DNA of 64,000 nucleotides from Leptotrichia trevisanii DSM 22070 (GTDB lineage: Bacteria; Fusobacteriota; Fusobacteriia; Fusobacteriales; Leptotrichiaceae). A program made the position numbers and the translations under genes. How positions within the stretch are numbered: the first letter of the stretch is position 1; every line of letters starts with the position of its first letter. Under the pieces are notes generated by a model. It was not told the origin of the DNA. It searched no databases and worked only from the letters and a program-made list of their open reading frames with translations. The DNA is taken from assembly GCF_000482505.1 (NCBI RefSeq), contig NZ_KI519444.1, positions 48,953 through 112,952 of the forward strand, read 5' to 3'. Positions 23,561 to 47,468 of this stretch are shown piece by piece.

Positions 23561-24194
23561 ATTGCTTGCCTTATTTTAATGGATATACTACTTTTACGTT
23601 ATTACTGGTATAGGTAATATGTTAGGATATGGGTTGTTTCAATCCTTGTTTTAATGGATATACTACTTTTACTACAAGAAAATGGCATAAAAAGATCAAT
23701 TTTCATACGTTTCAATCCTTGTTTTAATGGATATACTACTTTTACTTCGGTTGTGTTGGAAGCCATTATCTTTTTTAGGTTGTTTCAATCCTTGTTTTAA
23801 TGGATATACTACTTTTACTGTCGAAGAAAAAGTGTTAGAGATAAACCATACATTTGTTTCAATCCTTATTTTAATGGATATACTACTTTTACCTTTGTTG
23901 AATTCAAAGCATCCTTAAGGGTATATTACAAGTTTCAATCCTTATTTTAATGGATATACTACTTTTACTACAGAGTTACTAAGAATATCACAAGATTTGC
24001 GATGTCGTTTCAATCCTTATTTTAATGGATATACTACTTTTACCGGTTTCCCTTCGGCTTCATCTTATTAACCTTGCCACCGGTTTCAATCCTTATTTTA
24101 ATGGATATACTACTTTTACCTGTTAAAAAATACGCTAATGGTCTATTTAATTTAGCAGTTTCAATCCTTATTTTAATGGATATACTACTTTTAC
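23561..24194 (-). CRISPR. CRISPR array, 9 repeats and 8 spacers
   Basis: Repeats of 37 bases start at 23561, 23636, 23709, 23782, 23856, 23932, 24007, 24083 and 24158; spacers are 36-39 bases. On the plus strand the repeat starts GTTTCAATCCTT and ends ATACTACTTTTAC. Read on the minus strand it ends GGATTGAAAC, the typical 3' end of type I-B/III repeats, so crRNA is made from the minus strand. The 23561 repeat is degenerate in its last 12 bases (crRNA sense), marking the leader-distal end. Repeats 2-4 have CCTTGTTTT where the others have CCTTATTTT. The array is not followed by effector genes; cas1-cas2-cas4 lie about 9 kb downstream. Confidence 0.98.
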
Positions 24195-37828: not shown

Positions 37829-40800
37829 TTAGTAAATAGCTCTAAATCCAATTCCACCTCTGAAGTTTTCTCCAGTTGTGTCATACCCAGCATTTACCGT
37901 TACTCCGAATCTTGTGTTGTCCCATCCGAAGTTTAAGTCAAACTTACCATTTCCTCTATGATTTTCCTTATCTCCACGAAGTTTATAATAAGATGATTTT
38001 GCTCCTTTCAGTTTGGCTCTATTTTGAACATCATATAATTCACCCAGTTCATTTTCATAAGCCGCTGTTAAACTAGCTGTCAAGCTGCTTCTTACTCCTA
38101 AATCCTGTTTATAGTTAAATGATATTCCTGCTTCAGGTTTTGCTGAGAAGTAGTCGTTTCCTTTTACTTTCAATGCCATAGGCCCTGTTTCCCTGAAATC
38201 TGAATATTTTCCATATTCCAAGTTCAAAGCTCCATATGGACGGATACTTGTGTTTTCACTTGTTCTGAATTCTTTTCCAATTTCATTTTTAAGTGCGACA
38301 CCGTAAGTAGTATATTTTCCTTTTGCCTCAAATACTTCATTCACTATCCAGTATCTACGTTTCATATCTCCACGTCCTGCAAAAGCCTCTCCAGCAATTT
38401 TCCAAGTTAATGAACCATTGTAATCTCTCTTAGGCGACATTGTCTTGAACACTCCAGCTTTAATCATTGTTTGCTCTTCTTGTGATTTTCCAATATCCTT
38501 GAACTTGAATTTGTTGTAAACAGATCCTGCATACCATCCAGATTTATTTCCAAGTTTTATTTTTTCATTTTCGTGAACATACGCTACACCATAGGCATTG
38601 CTTGTATAATCAACAACTCCTGCTGTATCAGTCTTAAATTCACCTCTTTGTCCAAATACTTTAATTTTGTTGCTGTTTTTAGACGGATTTCTCCATTCAT
38701 CTTGCAAATAGTCAAATTCCTTGCTTAATACGCTTCCTGTTTCAAACATTCTTTGTTGGATATTTGAATATTGATGTCCTTTCATTTCATCAATTGCTTG
38801 AGCCAGAATGTGTCCTTCTCCACCTGTCAGGCTATTCAGCTTATCAAATATTGATTTTTCTTTCGTTCCCAAGCCTTCTACCCCGTATCTTTCTTCAAGT
38901 CCTGCCAGGAAGTTATAAGTTTGGGCATCTCCAGCTTTGGCAAAAGTTGTATAAGGAATTTTTACCAGATATACTTTATCCAAAAGTCCAGTCGCAGCAT
39001 TTTTTGTAGGCTGTGCCATCCAAGTAAGGCTGGCTGCAGTTGAGTTTAATGTTGTTCCAGCTGTTACTACTGAAGCTAGTGCATCATTATATGGTTTTAA
39101 AATATTATCCCCTATCTGTATTGCTTTTGCGGTAGTGTATTTTGCCGCTTCACTTCCAAAATATAAATTAATGTCTGTCAATCCTGTCAAGTTATTAATT
39201 CCTTGAATAGGATTTGTATAATTCACTCCGGAAGTGTCTACATACATTCCAAGACTTGTTGCCTTTGATGCAGATGGTATACTTCCTAATCCTATTTTAG
39301 ACAAGTCCAATGTTGTTATTCCTGATGGTGATGTTACTGTTACCAATGTTGCTGTCGGTGATGGAACATTTGTATCTACATTTGCTATTGGGATTGCATT
39401 TCCATTTGCGTCTGTAACTGTTACTGTTGTTGATCTAGGTGGAACTTTTATTGTAACTCCTCCCATTTCCTTCATATCATCAGCTGTAACTACTTTCATT
39501 GGTAAATTTGAAGTTCCTGTCTGCTGTATTCCTGAAGAATTTGTACCAGTTGCATTTTCCACAGCTTTATCTACTGACTGTGTATCTGTCCATATTCCCG
39601 CACTTTTAGGATCTGAGGCATTTATAGTTATTGTTCCGTAGTTTTTAATATAACTTCCATTTGCCAGATAAATTCCTTTTACTGCTGTAAATCCTCCTGC
39701 CGTAGTCTTGATTGTACCCCAGTTTTCTCCAACTGCTCCTCTGTCAAGATACATTCCAATTGTATTACTTCCAGAAAGATTAATATCTCCGTAGTTTATC
39801 GCCTTGGAACCTGAACCAACTGCATACATTCCCATTGTATTCGGTTTGCTTACTTCAATAGTTCCTCTGTTTATGACAGTCCCTTGATTAGAGATTGCAT
39901 GTGTCGCCTCATCATAATACCCTGTTGCCATTCCTACTCCAAATTCTTTATTTGCAGTATTTGAAGCCCCTACTTTAATTAGGTTAAAGTTTGTAGCTGT
40001 TCCGCCAGTAGAATAAATTGCTACGTTTCCAGCTCCTATCGAAAAATCAATATCTGCACGATTTTCCATTGTCCCATTACCATAAAGTCCATAATTTTTA
40101 TTTCCTGTTGATGTTACAGAAGTATAGTTAAATACTTTTCCCGTATTATCATTTTGATATACATAAATTGAATCATTTCCTAATGATACATTTCCTATTT
40201 TAGAAGTTACAGTATTTCCTGTCCCTGCATCAACAAATCCAAATGAATTATCTCCAATATTCATTGTTGCACCAGAATTTGCATTAAGATTTTGGTTAGT
40301 TCCTACTGCATAAACCCCGACAGCCTGATTTCCACCCAATGTGATTGTAGAGCCTGAATTTAAGTTTACATTAGTTCCTGTATCATGAGTGTAAATTGCA
40401 ACACCGTTATCTCCAGCTTTTATCAAGGCACCATTTTCATTGTCAACATCATATCCATAAATTCCTATTGCGTTATCTCCAACAGTAATAGCACCTTTAT
40501 TGACTGTTTTATTTTTAGCTTTTGAATAAATTCCGACATTGGCATTTGCCTGTGCTGTTGCATTTCCAAGTTTTATTTTATGCCCGGCATCATTAATTAC
40601 ATCCGCTCCATTTGAAACGATCCCAAACTCAAGTGCTGATGACGTTCCAGTTATATCCCCCTGATTAATAAATGTATTACCAGTTCCTGCTGTCGTATAT
40701 AACCCAATCATTCCACCAGTAGTATTAGTGGCATTATTAAGTTTTACATTCGCTTTATTTGTCTTAGTTGGCTGTCCATCCTGATTATAAACAATCCCCA

Positions 40801-43800
40801 TTCCAGTTCCTGTCGTACTTCCATTGTATTTATATTCAAGGGTTCCATTTACATTCGTATCTCCAGAAGCAAATATTCCTATACCTTTTTCCTTAGTTTC
40901 AATTACATAATCTCCACCAGTCAAATTAATATCAGAATCTTCCGCATAGATACCTTTACCATTTACACCAGTTATAATATCAGAACCAGCTCCAGATGCA
41001 GTTACCGTAATTGTTCCACCTTGATCTGAACCTGCACCATGATTTACTCCTGCTACTGATACAAGAGGTGTTCCTTGTTTTTGTCCTGTTTCTATTGGAC
41101 TTGAAAGTACAGCAATTCCTACACCGTTATTTCCAACAGTTAATTGACTGTCATTTTTTACAATTACCTTATCTCTTGCTGCCCGTGTATTATTTTCAGC
41201 ATAAATTCCAACTGGATTATTTCCTGCAACATTAATCGCACCATGATTTTCTATATTTATTGTATATTGAGTATGTGTAAAGTTAGCATCATCTGTACCA
41301 TAATATTGTTTTGTATTCTTATCAGTTCCTCTCGCCGCTATCCCAGCTCCAGAACCTGTTACATTAATCGTTCCAAAATTTTCCAGTTTACTTCCATTAG
41401 TTCCATAAATTCCTGCACCATTATCAATTGTTACTGTTGCAGTTGAACCTTTAGATGTTCCATTTTTAATTGTTCCATAACTTACATTCATTCCTGCAAT
41501 ACCATTTGCAGTTGTTCCTCCTGTAACATTTACAGTCCCTTCATTTTTAAATCCAGAAGTTGCATTAGATGGTGTTATACCAGCAGCAGTTTGAGTGGCT
41601 GTAGAAAGATTTCCCATTGAAAGTCCTTGTGCCTTTCCTTGAGAAACTAAACTTCCAGCACCTATATTTCCAGTTACTGATGTCGCATTACTTATTGTTA
41701 TCAGCTCGTTAGCCATTGATATACCATTATATCTATCATTTGAACTATTTAAATCAACAGAAGAAGCTGTTACGCTTAAATCTCCATTTGTAAGTGTTGT
41801 TTTATATGCTCCTAAAATATTAACTTTTCCAAATTTAGCTATTCCAGGCAACGCATTTAAAAAAGTTCCACTTTTATCTAAAGAATCATCCCAAACTAAT
41901 CCTGTCAACTTATCAAACGATCCAATTGTAACACCATCATGCACATTTACTGTAACATTACCTACACCACGATATTTTCCTGTCGTAGCAGTATCTGAAT
42001 TTTCATAGTCACTATCTTTTCCTGTAATAAATACTCCATCATACATATCTATTGTTGTTTGTGATTTACCATTACTTCCTGATTTAAATACAATTTTACT
42101 TGTTGCATCAGCATAAAAAGGTGTTACATTTTCATGATCATTATCTGAAAGTCCTCTTGCCACATGATTGTCTTTATTTTTTATCGTTCCACCAGAATAA
42201 TTTACTGTTCCACCTGCTAATGCTGCTAATCCTCCACTTGTACCAGTTTCTATATTAGTTGTTCCCTCAAGGTTTACTGTCCCTCCATTTGCAATTGCAC
42301 CTATTCCACGTATCGTTGAAGTTGTTGCACCAACAGTTATTGTTGCAGTTTTTACCTTCGAAGCTTGTGAACCATCAGGACTAGTTAAATTAAATGTTTC
42401 TCCTTTACTTCCAATAGTAACTTCACCACCCGCTTTAGCATATCCACCTATATTTTCATATAACATTTTTTTTGTATCGGCATCGTTTGTATCTGCCCAC
42501 TCATCTTTTTCTTCTACACCACCATAAGCATAAATTTGACTCCCAGCCCCAGTTGCATATCCAATTATTGATTTATAACCTTTAGCTGTTGTTTTTCCAT
42601 ACGATTTTACAATTCCACCATCTTCAGCTACATAAGCTATAGGATGCGAACCTTGTTTTTTGGGTAATCCTGTAGAAGGATCTATAACCAATGCTCCTGT
42701 AGAAGGATTTATAAGAGGTAATTCTTTATATCTTGCAGACATTACAACATTAGGGGCTATATTAATCTGACTTCCCAAATCTTTTAATGTATTAATTGTA
42801 TTTTCTGAAAATGCACCCGCTCTATTATTTTCTGCTGAATCTTTCCATTTCCCTTTAGCATATGCCAAAATTGTTCCAGTTGCAACTTGATTATCAGTAT
42901 CATTATTTGAGGCCTTTAATGTTGTAGCATTACCATAATCTGTTATATCATTTGTTCTTATCTTCGTATTTACCAATGAAGGATCTGTCGCATCATTTCC
43001 ATGGCTATTTGTTGGCATAGCTATATCTACTACTGTTCCATTTTTTGAAACTACCATTACATTATCTTTTGAATATTTTCCAAAAGTCACTTCTATATTA
43101 TTTATCTGTAATGAATGTATAGGATCTTTACTAAAATCACTACCCACTGTTGTTCCATTAAGAGCTGTAGATGTAGCTGTCGGTTTGTATACTGCTCCCA
43201 AATCATCTGTTTTAATACCATCTCTTTGTCCAGACTGTGCCAGTATTACTACATTTCTTTCAACATATTTATTATCTCCATTGATGTATTTAGCGTGTCC
43301 ACCACTATCTTTTGTATAAACAGTATTCCCGCTAGCTCCTTGAACAGCGTTGGCATCTGCTCCATTTGCATTATTATTTTTCTTATTTCCAATAATTGCT
43401 TTAGCTAATATTTCACCTTGATAAATACCTATTACTGACTTATTCCAATTATTCCTATTAAGAGTTGGTGTTAAATCTGAATTTGGTTCAGGCCAGACTG
43501 TTGTACTTTGGGCTTGAGATAAGGGCAATAAATCATTGAAAAATAACACAACATTATTATCACCATATGATTCTGGTGGTGTTGTCATTTTTATTGATGG
43601 TGTCATCCCTTTAACTGAACTGATTCTATACATTGTATCTGTATCAGATACACGTGAAGTGCTATGAGCAGATATATTATCAAAATTCGCACTATATCCT
43701 AGTCCTGAGTAAACGACATTACTTCCACCTTCCAAAATATATTTCCCCGTACTGTCCATGTTAAAACTTCCTTGTACCCCCATCGCTGAATATATCGTAT

Positions 43801-45133
43801 TTCTTTGAGAAGTAATAGTTGCTTGTACATCTCCAGTAAATCCACCTCTTTTTCTATCGGAACCTAATCCACGAAATTGGATTGAATTATAATGTGTATT
43901 TTTTACTGGTAATCCTGTTAATGCTTCATAATATGCAGGATAGATATAAAATAAAGTGTTTTCATCTTCTTTTACATTGACTTTAGTATTTTCAAATTTT
44001 ACATTTCCAGCTTGCCATGTTTCTATAGAAACAAAATTAGCACGTCCCATAAGATGGCCAGTTACATTTTTTATAGTTCCATCGTTCACTGTATGAATTG
44101 CAATTTGTCCGTTCTTTTTTATTTCTCCAGGGCCAGGTGCCGGATAATTATTTCTTCCAACTAAACCAGAACTTTGTGAATTTACAGTCATATTCCCAGC
44201 AGCATAAACTGTTATACCATCAAGAGTGAAAGGTTGATCTCCTGAAAAGTCATGGCCATCTCCACTAAAATAAAATAATGAGCCATCTCTATCAGTATTT
44301 CTAACAATTGTACTATTTTTTCCAAACCCTTGTTGATACCCTCCACCTGGATTTGGGTTATATCCTGTCCAATAAACATCATTTGAAACTAAAGTTCTTG
44401 TTGTCCCTCCATGATAACCATATGTATTGTCTTCAAATCTAAAATCATTAAAAGGATTTGTACTTGGAGTTGGTAAAGAAACATTAACACTTGGAGTAGT
44501 TATGTTAATACTTCCTATTTCTTTAGGTGCCCTAACACTAATATTCAAATTAGGCGTACTAGGTGCCCCGATTGTTGGCAAATTAATATTTAAAGCTGTT
44601 TTTTGAATATTTTTAGGCTTAACCGCCGCATCCACCGGAATCGCCGAAATAGGCTCTATTACTCTTTTTAAAAAAGTTCGCCCATAGTCTGCACCTGCAT
44701 AATTGCCAAATTTATTATTTGGATCTCTTTGGTAAATTACATTTTTTTCTTTATCTCCACGTCCTTTATAAGTTCCTCCCCAGTTGCTATGAAAATAATT
44801 AATTCCAAATTGCCAACTTGAAAACGGTTCTTTTACAACTTGATCTCCTTGTTCCATTAATTGGATTAATTCAAGGTTTGTACCTTTTATCAATTTGTTG
44901 TTCTCAATTTTTGCACGCTTGAAATCTGTCCGTATCTGACTTATTGAAGTGTTAATCTGATGAACTTGATTTTGAATACTCGAATCAGTTGTAGCAGCTG
45001 AAAATAAATTAACAGATAATAACATTCCGCATAATAAAAATGTAAACAATGCAGAATCAGTGTATTTAAAGTCTTTACATCTTTTGGCAAAGGCTTTTAA
45101 ATCTTTTTTTACTTGTAACAAACTTTTTGTCAT
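37829..45133 (-). CDS. Giant autotransporter adhesin (type Va)
   Basis: A 2434-residue surface protein. The N-terminus (SLLQVKKDLKAFAKRCKDFK then a hydrophobic segment to about residue 47) is the autotransporter-associated N-terminal domain typical of Leptotrichia and Fusobacterium adhesins. The passenger, about 50-2130, is Gly/Asn/Thr-rich with many short beta-helix repeats such as GNNAVGIYA-like and NKGTINVG-like turns. The C-terminal 280 residues form the beta-barrel (GQRGEFKTD, YGVAYVHENEKIKLG), ending in GIGFRAIY with a terminal aromatic residue. GAGGAG lies before the ATG. A 17-base A/T run lies about 290 bases upstream. Ligand unknown. Confidence 0.93.
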   Translation of the reverse strand: MTKSLLQVKKDLKAFAKRCKDFKYTDSALFTFLLCGMLLSVNLFSAATTDSSIQNQVHQINTSISQIRTDFKRAKIENNKLIKGTNLELIQLMEQGDQVVKEPFSSWQFGINYFHSNWGGTYKGRGDKEKNVIYQRDPNNKFGNYAGADYGRTFLKRVIEPISAIPVDAAVKPKNIQKTALNINLPTIGAPSTPNLNISVRAPKEIGSINITTPSVNVSLPTPSTNPFNDFRFEDNTYGYHGGTTRTLVSNDVYWTGYNPNPGGGYQQGFGKNSTIVRNTDRDGSLFYFSGDGHDFSGDQPFTLDGITVYAAGNMTVNSQSSGLVGRNNYPAPGPGEIKKNGQIAIHTVNDGTIKNVTGHLMGRANFVSIETWQAGNVKFENTKVNVKEDENTLFYIYPAYYEALTGLPVKNTHYNSIQFRGLGSDRKRGGFTGDVQATITSQRNTIYSAMGVQGSFNMDSTGKYILEGGSNVVYSGLGYSANFDNISAHSTSRVSDTDTMYRISSVKGMTPSIKMTTPPESYGDNNVVLFFNDLLPLSQAQSTTVWPEPNSDLTPTLNRNNWNKSVIGIYQGEILAKAIIGNKKNNNANGADANAVQGASGNTVYTKDSGGHAKYINGDNKYVERNVVILAQSGQRDGIKTDDLGAVYKPTATSTALNGTTVGSDFSKDPIHSLQINNIEVTFGKYSKDNVMVVSKNGTVVDIAMPTNSHGNDATDPSLVNTKIRTNDITDYGNATTLKASNNDTDNQVATGTILAYAKGKWKDSAENNRAGAFSENTINTLKDLGSQINIAPNVVMSARYKELPLINPSTGALVIDPSTGLPKKQGSHPIAYVAEDGGIVKSYGKTTAKGYKSIIGYATGAGSQIYAYGGVEEKDEWADTNDADTKKMLYENIGGYAKAGGEVTIGSKGETFNLTSPDGSQASKVKTATITVGATTSTIRGIGAIANGGTVNLEGTTNIETGTSGGLAALAGGTVNYSGGTIKNKDNHVARGLSDNDHENVTPFYADATSKIVFKSGSNGKSQTTIDMYDGVFITGKDSDYENSDTATTGKYRGVGNVTVNVHDGVTIGSFDKLTGLVWDDSLDKSGTFLNALPGIAKFGKVNILGAYKTTLTNGDLSVTASSVDLNSSNDRYNGISMANELITISNATSVTGNIGAGSLVSQGKAQGLSMGNLSTATQTAAGITPSNATSGFKNEGTVNVTGGTTANGIAGMNVSYGTIKNGTSKGSTATVTIDNGAGIYGTNGSKLENFGTINVTGSGAGIAARGTDKNTKQYYGTDDANFTHTQYTINIENHGAINVAGNNPVGIYAENNTRAARDKVIVKNDSQLTVGNNGVGIAVLSSPIETGQKQGTPLVSVAGVNHGAGSDQGGTITVTASGAGSDIITGVNGKGIYAEDSDINLTGGDYVIETKEKGIGIFASGDTNVNGTLEYKYNGSTTGTGMGIVYNQDGQPTKTNKANVKLNNATNTTGGMIGLYTTAGTGNTFINQGDITGTSSALEFGIVSNGADVINDAGHKIKLGNATAQANANVGIYSKAKNKTVNKGAITVGDNAIGIYGYDVDNENGALIKAGDNGVAIYTHDTGTNVNLNSGSTITLGGNQAVGVYAVGTNQNLNANSGATMNIGDNSFGFVDAGTGNTVTSKIGNVSLGNDSIYVYQNDNTGKVFNYTSVTSTGNKNYGLYGNGTMENRADIDFSIGAGNVAIYSTGGTATNFNLIKVGASNTANKEFGVGMATGYYDEATHAISNQGTVINRGTIEVSKPNTMGMYAVGSGSKAINYGDINLSGSNTIGMYLDRGAVGENWGTIKTTAGGFTAVKGIYLANGSYIKNYGTITINASDPKSAGIWTDTQSVDKAVENATGTNSSGIQQTGTSNLPMKVVTADDMKEMGGVTIKVPPRSTTVTVTDANGNAIPIANVDTNVPSPTATLVTVTSPSGITTLDLSKIGLGSIPSASKATSLGMYVDTSGVNYTNPIQGINNLTGLTDINLYFGSEAAKYTTAKAIQIGDNILKPYNDALASVVTAGTTLNSTAASLTWMAQPTKNAATGLLDKVYLVKIPYTTFAKAGDAQTYNFLAGLEERYGVEGLGTKEKSIFDKLNSLTGGEGHILAQAIDEMKGHQYSNIQQRMFETGSVLSKEFDYLQDEWRNPSKNSNKIKVFGQRGEFKTDTAGVVDYTSNAYGVAYVHENEKIKLGNKSGWYAGSVYNKFKFKDIGKSQEEQTMIKAGVFKTMSPKRDYNGSLTWKIAGEAFAGRGDMKRRYWIVNEVFEAKGKYTTYGVALKNEIGKEFRTSENTSIRPYGALNLEYGKYSDFRETGPMALKVKGNDYFSAKPEAGISFNYKQDLGVRSSLTASLTAAYENELGELYDVQNRAKLKGAKSSYYKLRGDKENHRGNGKFDLNFGWDNTRFGVTVNAGYDTTGENFRGGIGFRAIY

Positions 45134-45311
45134 AAATTTCTCCTCTTTCCTTATTTTTTAGAATTTTTAAGTTTCATTTGAATCCCTTTGAATTTAATAA
45201 AAAATTAAATCAACTTGGAATTCTAACAACACAGCTTTAATTTTAAATAAATATTGCCATATTATAAAAAAACTTAAAATTTTTACAAAAATAATGAAAT
45301 AACCTAAAATT

Positions 45312-45389
45312 AAGTGATATTTAGTTTTAGTGATTTTATAGTGATTTTAACAAAATAAGTGATTTTTCATATTCAGATTATCATTATCT
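45312..45389 (-). promoter_or_regulatory. Direct repeats and Fur-like sequence in the autotransporter leader
   Basis: Four copies of a sequence close to AGTGATTTT occur on the plus strand at about 45313, 45329, 45340 and 45358. Next to them on the minus strand AGATAATGATAATCTGAAT (about 45371-45389) contains two of the three GATAAT hexamers of a Fur box. Together they suggest a regulated 5' leader, but each element alone could arise by chance in such AT-rich DNA. Confidence 0.35.
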
Positions 45390-45413
45390 TTGTAAAAAAT
45401 TATTCTTGAACTA

Positions 45414-45442
45414 AGTCTACCAAAAAAAAAAAAAAAAAGCAA
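45414..45442 (-). promoter_or_regulatory. Promoter-like sequence with a 17-base homopolymer in its spacer
   Basis: On the minus strand TTGCTT (45437-45442) and TAGACT (45414-45419) are separated by 17 bases made of 15 T plus GG; the full run is 17 T (A at 45422-45438 on the plus strand). Slippage in the run would change the spacer and hence promoter strength, as in known phase-variable surface genes. The start codon is about 280 bases downstream. Confidence 0.5.
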
Positions 45443-45828
45443 GGGTTTTTTCAAAAAAATTAAAAATTTTTCATTTTCCCAAAATTATTACAAATCCCTT
45501 TTAAAATAGTACAAAATCAAAAAAATAACTATTTTTTTATATCAAACTTTTAACAAAATTCAATTTTATTTTAATTTTATCTAAGATTAATAAAATTTAT
45601 TTGACATAAAAATCAAAAAATATATGTTTAAACTTTCTATTCCCCAGTTTTTAATATCTATCATTTTTTTTATTTTCTAAATTTTTAGCATACTTTCCAT
45701 AAAAATTAACTCCTATATAATAATTGAGAATTAAAAAAATATTAAATCGTTTGATGGTATTTTTTACCAAAATTGACGAAAATATGATATAATATATTAT
45801 AATTATATTGTCAAAGGAGTTAAAATTT

Positions 45829-46977
45829 ATGATTATAATGAGATTGAAAATAGATAATTTTTATTCATTTAAAGATTTTGAGATAAATTTTTCATATCCT
45901 AGGAAAGTAAAAAATTCTCTTATTGAACATGAGTTCATTGAAAAAATCCCTAATTTCAGATTTAAAAAACTAAATATAATAATGGGAGCAAATTCAGCAG
46001 GAAAAACCACATTTGGAAAAATGTTGAGAAATATTTTTAATTTTATAGCAAAACAAAGAGTAGATTTATTACTTGAAGCAGTTAATAAAGAAGGCACAGA
46101 AGCAATGTTTGAATTGGATATTGTACTCAAGGAAGAAAATAAATATAATTTGTATAGATTAAATGTTGTGGTTGAGAAAATAATGTTAAATGAAGATGAT
46201 GAACATCTGAATATAAAGAAAATGAAGTTAAGTAAAGCAACTTTAAACAAAAATGACTCTTACGAAAGGGCAATCGAAAGATTAGATGTTGTTAAAAAGT
46301 ATTCACAAGAGGAAAATGAAAAAAATGAAACTGAAAAAATATTAGATGAAATAAATGGTTTTGGATGGTTTTTTAACTTTCCACAATCAAATAACTTAAC
46401 TAAAAAAATTAAAAACTTAAATGTAGCTAGCAATATCTTAAAAACGTTTGATAATACTATACAAAATATAAAAGAAATTGAAAACACAGAAAATGGCTAT
46501 CAAATAATTTTTAAGAATAGGGATAGTGTACTGTTGCAAAACGGAAAAATTGTAGATAGAGATATTTTATCAAGCGGAACAGAGGAAGCTCTGGGGATTA
46601 TATTTGCAATAGATCAGATGATTCAAGAACCTGACAGGCCTTTTTACATTGATGAAAAATTTTCACATGCTCATTCAGAACTTGAAAAATCTATTCTTTC
46701 AATAATGATAGATATAATGGGAAATGAATCTCAATTATTTTTTACGACACATAATAGCGACATATTGACTATGAATTTCCCAACACATTCATTTACATTT
46801 CTATCTAAACGTGAAGATGGGAAAATAAAAGTTACATATCCTGAAGATATGATAAAAAGAAATGACAGAAACTTAATAAATTATGTAAAAAACAATGTAT
46901 TTGATACAATTCCTGATGATGAATTAATATACGACATTATTGATATTATAAACAACAAAAGGAAAGGGGTAATATGA
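45829..46977 (+). CDS. AAA/ABC-type ATPase of a probable two-gene defence unit
   Basis: A 382-residue SMC/OLD-like ATPase (AAA_15/AAA_21 type): Walker A GANSAGKTT at about residue 60, signature-like SSGTEEALGIIFAIDQMI, Walker B FYIDEKFSHAHSELE, and H-loop FFTTHNSDIL. The start is the ATG at 45829, nine bases after AAAGGAG; the longer frame starts at a TTG. It overlaps the next gene by four bases (ATGA), so the two are translationally coupled. Similar ATPase-plus-small-partner pairs (RloA/RloB, PARIS AriA/AriB) are antiphage systems, but the exact type is not settled here. Confidence 0.82.
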   Translation: MIIMRLKIDNFYSFKDFEINFSYPRKVKNSLIEHEFIEKIPNFRFKKLNIIMGANSAGKTTFGKMLRNIFNFIAKQRVDLLLEAVNKEGTEAMFELDIVLKEENKYNLYRLNVVVEKIMLNEDDEHLNIKKMKLSKATLNKNDSYERAIERLDVVKKYSQEENEKNETEKILDEINGFGWFFNFPQSNNLTKKIKNLNVASNILKTFDNTIQNIKEIENTENGYQIIFKNRDSVLLQNGKIVDRDILSSGTEEALGIIFAIDQMIQEPDRPFYIDEKFSHAHSELEKSILSIMIDIMGNESQLFFTTHNSDILTMNFPTHSFTFLSKREDGKIKVTYPEDMIKRNDRNLINYVKNNVFDTIPDDELIYDIIDIINNKRKGVI

Positions 46978-47468
46978 GGAATATAATACATTACTTTGTT
47001 GAAGGGGAATGTGAAAAAAAGTTAATAAATGCTATAAAAAATAAATATATCCAGTCAGGTAAGATAAGAATAAAAAATATATCACAAGAGGTTATTCATA
47101 AAGCAGTTTTAAGAACATTGGAAAAGAATGCAGTTTGTGTTATGGTAGTTGATACAGATGTTCTATACAGTAACGAAAAATGTTTCCAAAAAATTCTAGA
47201 AAACAAAAGAAATTTAGAAAAAAATAATGTAAATTATATATTCATTTATCAAAATAAAAATTTAGAGGATGAAATTGTAAAATCTACTAATCTGAAAAAA
47301 ATATCAGAAATGTTTGGAGTAAACTCTGTAGGAGAACATAAAACGATTTTTATAGAACATAAAAATTTGATTCAGAAATTAGAAAGTATTGGATTTGATG
47401 TGAATAAAATTTGGCTTTATAACGATAACAAATTACCTGAAAATAAATCTAAAAAAATAAAATTATAA
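46974..47468 (+). CDS. Small TOPRIM/RloB-like partner of the ATPase
   Basis: A 164-residue protein: IIHYFVEGECEKKLINAI near the N-terminus resembles the EGxxE start of TOPRIM or RloB-like nucleases, and VCVMVVDTDVLYSN supplies a DxD after a hydrophobic strand. LEDEIVKSTNLKKISEMFG and a C-terminal Lys-rich tail follow. It could be the nuclease or toxin arm of the pair with the ATPase held as sensor. The start overlaps the ATPase stop. A strong terminator follows 12 bases after its stop. Confidence 0.72.
   Translation: MRNIIHYFVEGECEKKLINAIKNKYIQSGKIRIKNISQEVIHKAVLRTLEKNAVCVMVVDTDVLYSNEKCFQKILENKRNLEKNNVNYIFIYQNKNLEDEIVKSTNLKKISEMFGVNSVGEHKTIFIEHKNLIQKLESIGFDVNKIWLYNDNKLPENKSKKIKL

Follow-up and report, generated by a model that had tools for sequence, protein, structure and literature searches.

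A poly-T promoter spacer as a candidate phase-variable element of a giant Leptotrichia autotransporter, with counterparts at other adhesin genes of Fusobacteriales

Does an uninterrupted run of T's upstream of a giant autotransporter gene serve as a promoter spacer whose length can change, and would the expression of the adhesin change with it? The question is raised by a stretch of 64,000 nucleotides from Leptotrichia trevisanii DSM 22070, referred to here as the window. Its longest homopolymer, as a first-pass annotation of the same DNA had remarked, is a run of 17 bases, compared with 9 for the next longest A or T run.

The T run and its promoter setting

Read directly, positions 45414-45442 of the plus strand are AGTCTACC-A17-GCAA, which on the minus strand gives TTGC-T17-GGTAGACT. 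Re-reading the letters bore out the annotated arrangement, in which TTGCTT and TAGACT are exactly 17 bases apart and 15 of these bases are T. The description of the 17-base homopolymer as lying inside the spacer holds for 15 of its bases but not for the remaining two T's, which belong to TTGCTT. The elements of the site and its downstream gene are:

45437..45442, minus strand: -35 element TTGCTT, its final two T's shared with the T run
45422..45438, minus strand: T17 homopolymer, with 15 of its 17 T's within the spacer
45420..45436, minus strand: 17-bp spacer, T15 followed by GG, its terminal three bases TGG forming an extended -10
45414..45419, minus strand: -10 element TAGACT
45134..45407, minus strand: putative 5' leader, about 270 nt long for a transcript beginning about 7 nt downstream of the -10
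37829..45133, minus strand: gene of a giant type V autotransporter of 2434 aa, assigned from the open reading frame, its translation and NCBIfam profiles

The TTGCTT/T15GG/TAGACT site lies 281 bp upstream of the autotransporter gene on the same strand, and the list of open reading frames holds none of at least 100 aa between the run and the start codon. The protein matches the fusobacterial autotransporter N-terminal domain (NF033175) with 156.9 bits against a cut-off of 55. Its residues 2033-2418 align with the RadD equivalog NF049908 at 201.5 bits, below the full-length cut-off of 3500; judged by its profile matches, the protein is RadD-like at its C-terminus but is not classed as RadD. Its gene has its best named relative in Leptotrichia sp. 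oral taxon 879. Both profile matches point to a surface-exposed product, the kind of target that porA/opc-type promoters serve.

On the other side of the run, the nearest gene starts at 45808 and is divergent. It belongs to a pair (45808-47468) that overlaps by four bases and encodes an AAA-type ATPase (PF13304) and a 164-aa protein, the latter with no Pfam or NCBIfam match; the pair could be defence-like. The window also contains a CRISPR array at 23636-24194, with eight repeats matching Rfam RF01320 (CRISPR-DR7).

Taken alone, the two hexamers are no better than chance, with TTGCTT matching the consensus at 3/6 positions and TAGACT at 4/6, the latter being the weakest -10 among the promoters with such runs. 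Rfam and tRNA scans gave no match at the run. The first-pass annotation had overlooked that TAGACT is directly preceded by TGG, made up of the closing T of the run and the GG after it, and TGN in this position is an established extended -10 motif. It is this extended -10, along with the recurrence of the arrangement at other autotransporter promoters, that raises the site above chance on sequence grounds; without the two, it would be a weak candidate. The source genome (2.85 Mb, 78 contigs) contains six separate T or A runs of at least 13, four of which reach at least 16. In Markov simulations of 2000 sequences each, 17, 59 and 123 sequences at orders 1, 2 and 3 contained a run of 17 or more, a lenient estimate of chance, since the models were trained on the same intergenic DNA including the run.

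The T17 tract probably forms part of a phase-variable promoter of the porA/opc kind, here with poly-T and an extended -10, which would be the main promoter of the 2434-aa autotransporter. The uninterrupted homopolymer fills the interval between -35 and -10 at a spacing of 17, near the optimum. RNA polymerase would touch TTGCTT and the extended -10 TGG-TAGACT, and slipped-strand mispairing in the run would shift the spacer in 1-bp steps around the optimum. The TGN motif takes its T from the end of the run, so that a longer or shorter run would spare the extended -10 and alter only the distance and helical phase to the -35. Such shifts are expected to alter adhesin expression stepwise and reversibly, as in porA, opc and fetA of Neisseria. 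Because an extended -10 lessens the reliance on the -35, control may be graded rather than strictly on or off. That the site is an active promoter, that its run slips within a strain and that expression responds are what we infer from the architecture and its distribution. A family of Leptotrichia autotransporter promoters would share the device, which autotransporters of other Fusobacteriales would use sporadically.

Recurrence before autotransporter genes

Autotransporters matching NF033175 were catalogued in 13 genomes of the genus. Upstream regions were read for 124 of the 129 matches, leaving aside three partial ones in the source genome (G000), the second half of a split gene (G012) and one weak match (G009 C4); within the 124, one region (L042) starts at a contig edge and two (L031 and L041) contain N's. 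A T run of at least 13 occurs within 500 bp upstream in 12 of the 124 regions. These runs (T13-T19) are distributed over three genomes, with one in G000, which is that of the window, two in G006 and nine in G008, and all 12 fill the spacer of a TTG...TGN-TANNNT promoter at 15-18 bp. Nine of the runs are in one genome and paralogous, so that the number of independent origins is about four or five. Among autotransporters above the cut-off, 9 of 11 in G008 have a T-run promoter; in G000, a run of at least nine T's within 600 bp upstream is found at 1 of 15, the window gene. This rarity in its own genome, which still counts against the proposal, was first taken against a shared mechanism; the other species put it in a different light.

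The placement of the longest runs can be compared with expectation. Across the genus there are 53 runs of T15 or more (54 rows in the tally, one run being counted twice around N's), and 10 of them lie no more than 400 bp upstream of an autotransporter on the coding strand: seven of eight in G008, both in G006 and one of four in G000. Length alone predicts 0.04 such runs and an eightfold intergenic enrichment raises this to 0.35, both figures assuming independent runs, which paralogs are not. At all 16 loci scored, the window included, the run promoter had the best or joint best score within 400 bp, under a score that rewards TGN and whose weights were set after the sites had been seen.

A wider comparison was made across 96 genomes of the order with the strict pattern CTTGN-T11-N(0-9)-TGNTANNNT, the reversed pattern serving as control. 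All 11 matches of the strict pattern stand before autotransporters, and the reversed pattern had no match in the 96 genomes. Ten of the 11 are Leptotrichia promoters before NF033175 autotransporters. The other, CTTGC-T15-GGTACAAT, belongs to another family (G041), where it precedes a gene whose 1286-aa product combines an autotransporter beta-domain (PF03797) with an OmpA domain (PF00691). The strict pattern was built after the Leptotrichia sites had been seen, and its independent content is thus the G041 match, the lack of non-adhesin matches and the zero in the control. A search for orthologs of the G041 autotransporter in the 96 genomes returned that protein alone.

The relaxed pattern CTTGN0-4-T12-N0-10-TANNAT, whose design excludes the TAGACT of the window, gave 17 rows in the same 96 genomes, representing 16 distinct sites, 14 of them before autotransporters; its reversed form had no match. 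It adds a third genus (G049), in which the gene encodes a trimeric autotransporter with YadA head repeats (PF05658). Of the two remaining sites, one (G056) precedes an ORF that was judged ATPase-like by reading and the other (G071) has no ORF noticed beside it. A pattern scan of viral contigs matched five contigs, with no autotransporter seen among them. In the 96 genomes, these modules are placed near-exclusively before autotransporters.

Many T15+ runs in the genus that lie away from autotransporters have a different layout, a second pattern in which a TATAAT-like element with TTCTAATC is closely followed by an A run. At conserved non-adhesin places (L067-L069, L078, L082, L084, L088, L092, L208, L209 and L214), A15-A23 follows TATAAT by a few bases, with TTCTAAT before it; these runs, read on the strand opposite to the T run, vary in length between species. 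In several species, two conserved genes are preceded by a TATAAT-like element that itself has A16-A23 immediately upstream (L070, L207, L216, L218 and L219, and also L023 and L077); these runs are possible A-type spacers. In a second autotransporter-like family (open frames of about 820-835 aa in G011, G012 and G002), a -10-like element and the ribosome site have a run of 9 to 22 A's between them, some 20-40 bp ahead of the start codon; its length goes with the species: A22 at L200 (G012), A14 at L199 (G011) and A9 at L202 and L203.

Run length, spacing and other explanations

Near-identical promoters differ in the length of their runs. A trio of G008 paralogs has T14, T16 and T13, with the 143 bp from run to start codon identical and the 150 bp upstream showing 1-3 substitutions and no more than two single-base gaps. 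In a second G008 pair (T16 and T18), the 143 bp are again identical and six substitutions lie upstream, and a G006 pair (T19 and T18) shows three substitutions in 142 bp. These differences were found in the G008 and G006 relatives and not at the window locus itself, and the lengths are those of assemblies, in which sequencing error is possible, above all in long-read ones. With flanks nearly identical while the runs differ, the run is among the fastest-changing places of these promoters. Together with the architecture common to all 12 runs and the outcome of the pattern search and its control, this comparison supports the original proposal that the tract is a candidate phase-variable spacer of the giant autotransporter promoter.

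A difference in length does not by itself indicate a switch, since some runs at orthologous non-adhesin places vary as well (T15-T23); at one conserved intergenic place away from autotransporters, the T or A runs measure 15, 16, 16, 17 and 23. The run might be a promoter spacer that switches nothing, any T-rich spacer being adequate and the length drifting around a workable 15-18 bp. Relatives with an interrupted or absent run fit such drift, as they retain both hexamers at 16-17 bp. Three promoters with T9CT7 have a spacer of 16, two with mixed bases in place of the run (L127 and L146) have 17, and L147 (T10) and L036 (T8), which include other bases, have 16 and 17; L106 and L107, from two species, have T9 and T10 with spacers of 16 and 17. 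That the hexamers remain in register without an intact run argues, at the same time, for real promoter elements, and the constancy of 16-17 bp is as expected if spacing matters.

Two further observations favor a spacer without a switch: every run length observed gives a spacer of 15-18, none of them strongly off the optimum, and mutS, which may restrain slippage, is present in 13/13 genomes. Against it stand the strong concentration of uninterrupted T runs in the TTG/TGN setting at autotransporter promoters and the variation in run length that already exists among paralogs with identical downstream flanks. Moreover, at porA, opc and fetA, sigma-factor binding is held to change with the length of the homopolymer that separates -10 from -35 (excerpt of PMC2791445). 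We therefore regard a spacer that merely drifts as unlikely and retain the phase-variable promoter as the preferred reading.

A different possibility is that the autotransporter transcript begins elsewhere and that the run is an incidental AT-rich tract. A consensus scan offers one such start:

45261..45288, minus strand: promoter-like site TTGTAA-16-TATAAT, downstream of the run

This site matches 10 of 12 consensus bases, compared with 7 of 12 for the run site, and 43 of the 53 T15+ runs in the genus are not followed within 400 bp by an autotransporter gene on their strand. However, the plain sigma-70 scan (threshold 9/12), which does not list the run site, returned 13 sites against 9.2 +/- 3.1 in shuffled sequence, an agreement that leaves the TTGTAA/TATAAT site not above chance. 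The run architecture, by contrast, recurs at adhesin promoters and has no reversed-pattern counterpart, and a start elsewhere is in our judgment quite improbable. Homopolymers are a common source of assembly error, but a tract that is truly shorter or heterogeneous is a very remote explanation, as long runs occupy this promoter position in the assemblies of several different genomes, an error of one or two bases would leave the architecture unchanged, and a heterogeneous tract would itself favor the switch.

Shared repeats, known systems and implications

The leader downstream of the run contains a second element of interest:

45313..45365, minus strand: four copies of ATCACT as direct repeats (AATCACT type), a candidate operator common to adhesin genes

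Within the genus, AATCACT-N0-12-AATCACT has 33 matches, compared with 13 for the reversed pattern, and 26 of the 33 lie no more than 700 bp upstream of an autotransporter match on the same strand. Two TCACT within 30 bp occur in 41 of the 124 autotransporter upstream regions, and AATCACT repeats are also found at L030, L034-L036, L253-L257 and others. Five of the other seven matches represent one orthologous inverted site just upstream of a FadA-family gene (in G000, PF09403 with 62.3 bits). The opposite orientation before this FadA-like gene in five species weakened the notion of an sRNA target, which was set aside, and fits a DNA operator better. The repeats thus look like a candidate operator of an adhesin regulon; their direct-repeat form presumably resembles that of OmpR/PhoB-type regulators.

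The porA tract of Neisseria is poly-G. A reference title in PMC2791445 gives the opc tract as poly-cytidine, and excerpts of the same paper place a homopolymer between the -35 and -10 of the surface-protein genes porA, opc and fetA of Neisseria meningitidis, in agreement with the annotation's statement that known phase-variable surface genes have homopolymeric promoter spacers. The window locus shares this placement. Unlike the poly-G or poly-C tracts of Neisseria, its run is poly-T, is joined to an extended -10 that takes its last T, and belongs to a paralogous autotransporter family.

Homopolymeric promoter-region tracts across a surface-protein family are also described for vlp of Mycoplasma hyorhinis, where every member has a poly-A tract and on/off switching is frequent (excerpt of PMC10502178). 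In contrast to the present case, those tracts are poly-A, their genes are unrelated and encode lipoproteins, and M. hyorhinis has no outer membrane. Closer in base and length is the adhesin gene sabA of H. pylori, whose promoter-region poly-T varies over T13-T16 and T16-T19 in single strains, the excerpt of PMC2715451 not placing the tract in a -35/-10 spacer; a rheostat-like mechanism has been described for it (excerpt of PMC4081817). The variation of sabA tracts (T13-T19) in single strains indicates that such tracts can be unstable.

One-base changes in the T tract (9-11 T) between Spy1336/R28 and Spy1337 of S. pyogenes alter the transcript level of a surface protein (excerpt of PMC7098570). 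This likewise is a T tract before a surface-protein gene, but it is shorter and set between divergent promoters, and a legend in that paper draws attention to the distance separating two direct repeats beside inferred promoters. For hifA/hifB of Haemophilus influenzae, a repeat has been proposed to alter the -10/-35 spacing of an adhesin promoter (excerpt of PMC2651432), as we propose here, although there the repeat is the dinucleotide TA and the genes are divergent. Phase variation has been suggested for fusobacterial autotransporters, with none demonstrated for the trimeric ones according to PMC6346709. A literature search, with most subscription papers outside it, found nothing in the partial texts covered on poly-T promoter spacers in Leptotrichia, Fusobacterium or the phylum. 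The device is of a known kind; its use in adhesins of Fusobacteriales appears to be undescribed, a new place for it and with many copies within one genome.

More tentatively, and with somewhat less than even confidence, we hypothesize that Fusobacteriales possess a recurrent hypermutable module, TTG-(N)-T(n)-G-(N)-TANNNT, found almost solely ahead of autotransporter adhesins and with more than one origin, in Leptotrichia and in two genera of another family. With nine copies in one genome, independent slippage could make the surface repertoire combinatorial, on top of a shared AATCACT operator that would mark adhesin genes, both autotransporters and the FadA-like gene. Testing can now start from specific promoters, a sequence rule that defines them and naturally occurring lengths from T13 to T19. 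Should the proposal hold, these oral bacteria would by design express their adhesins heterogeneously, a point that bears on studies of coaggregation and host binding.
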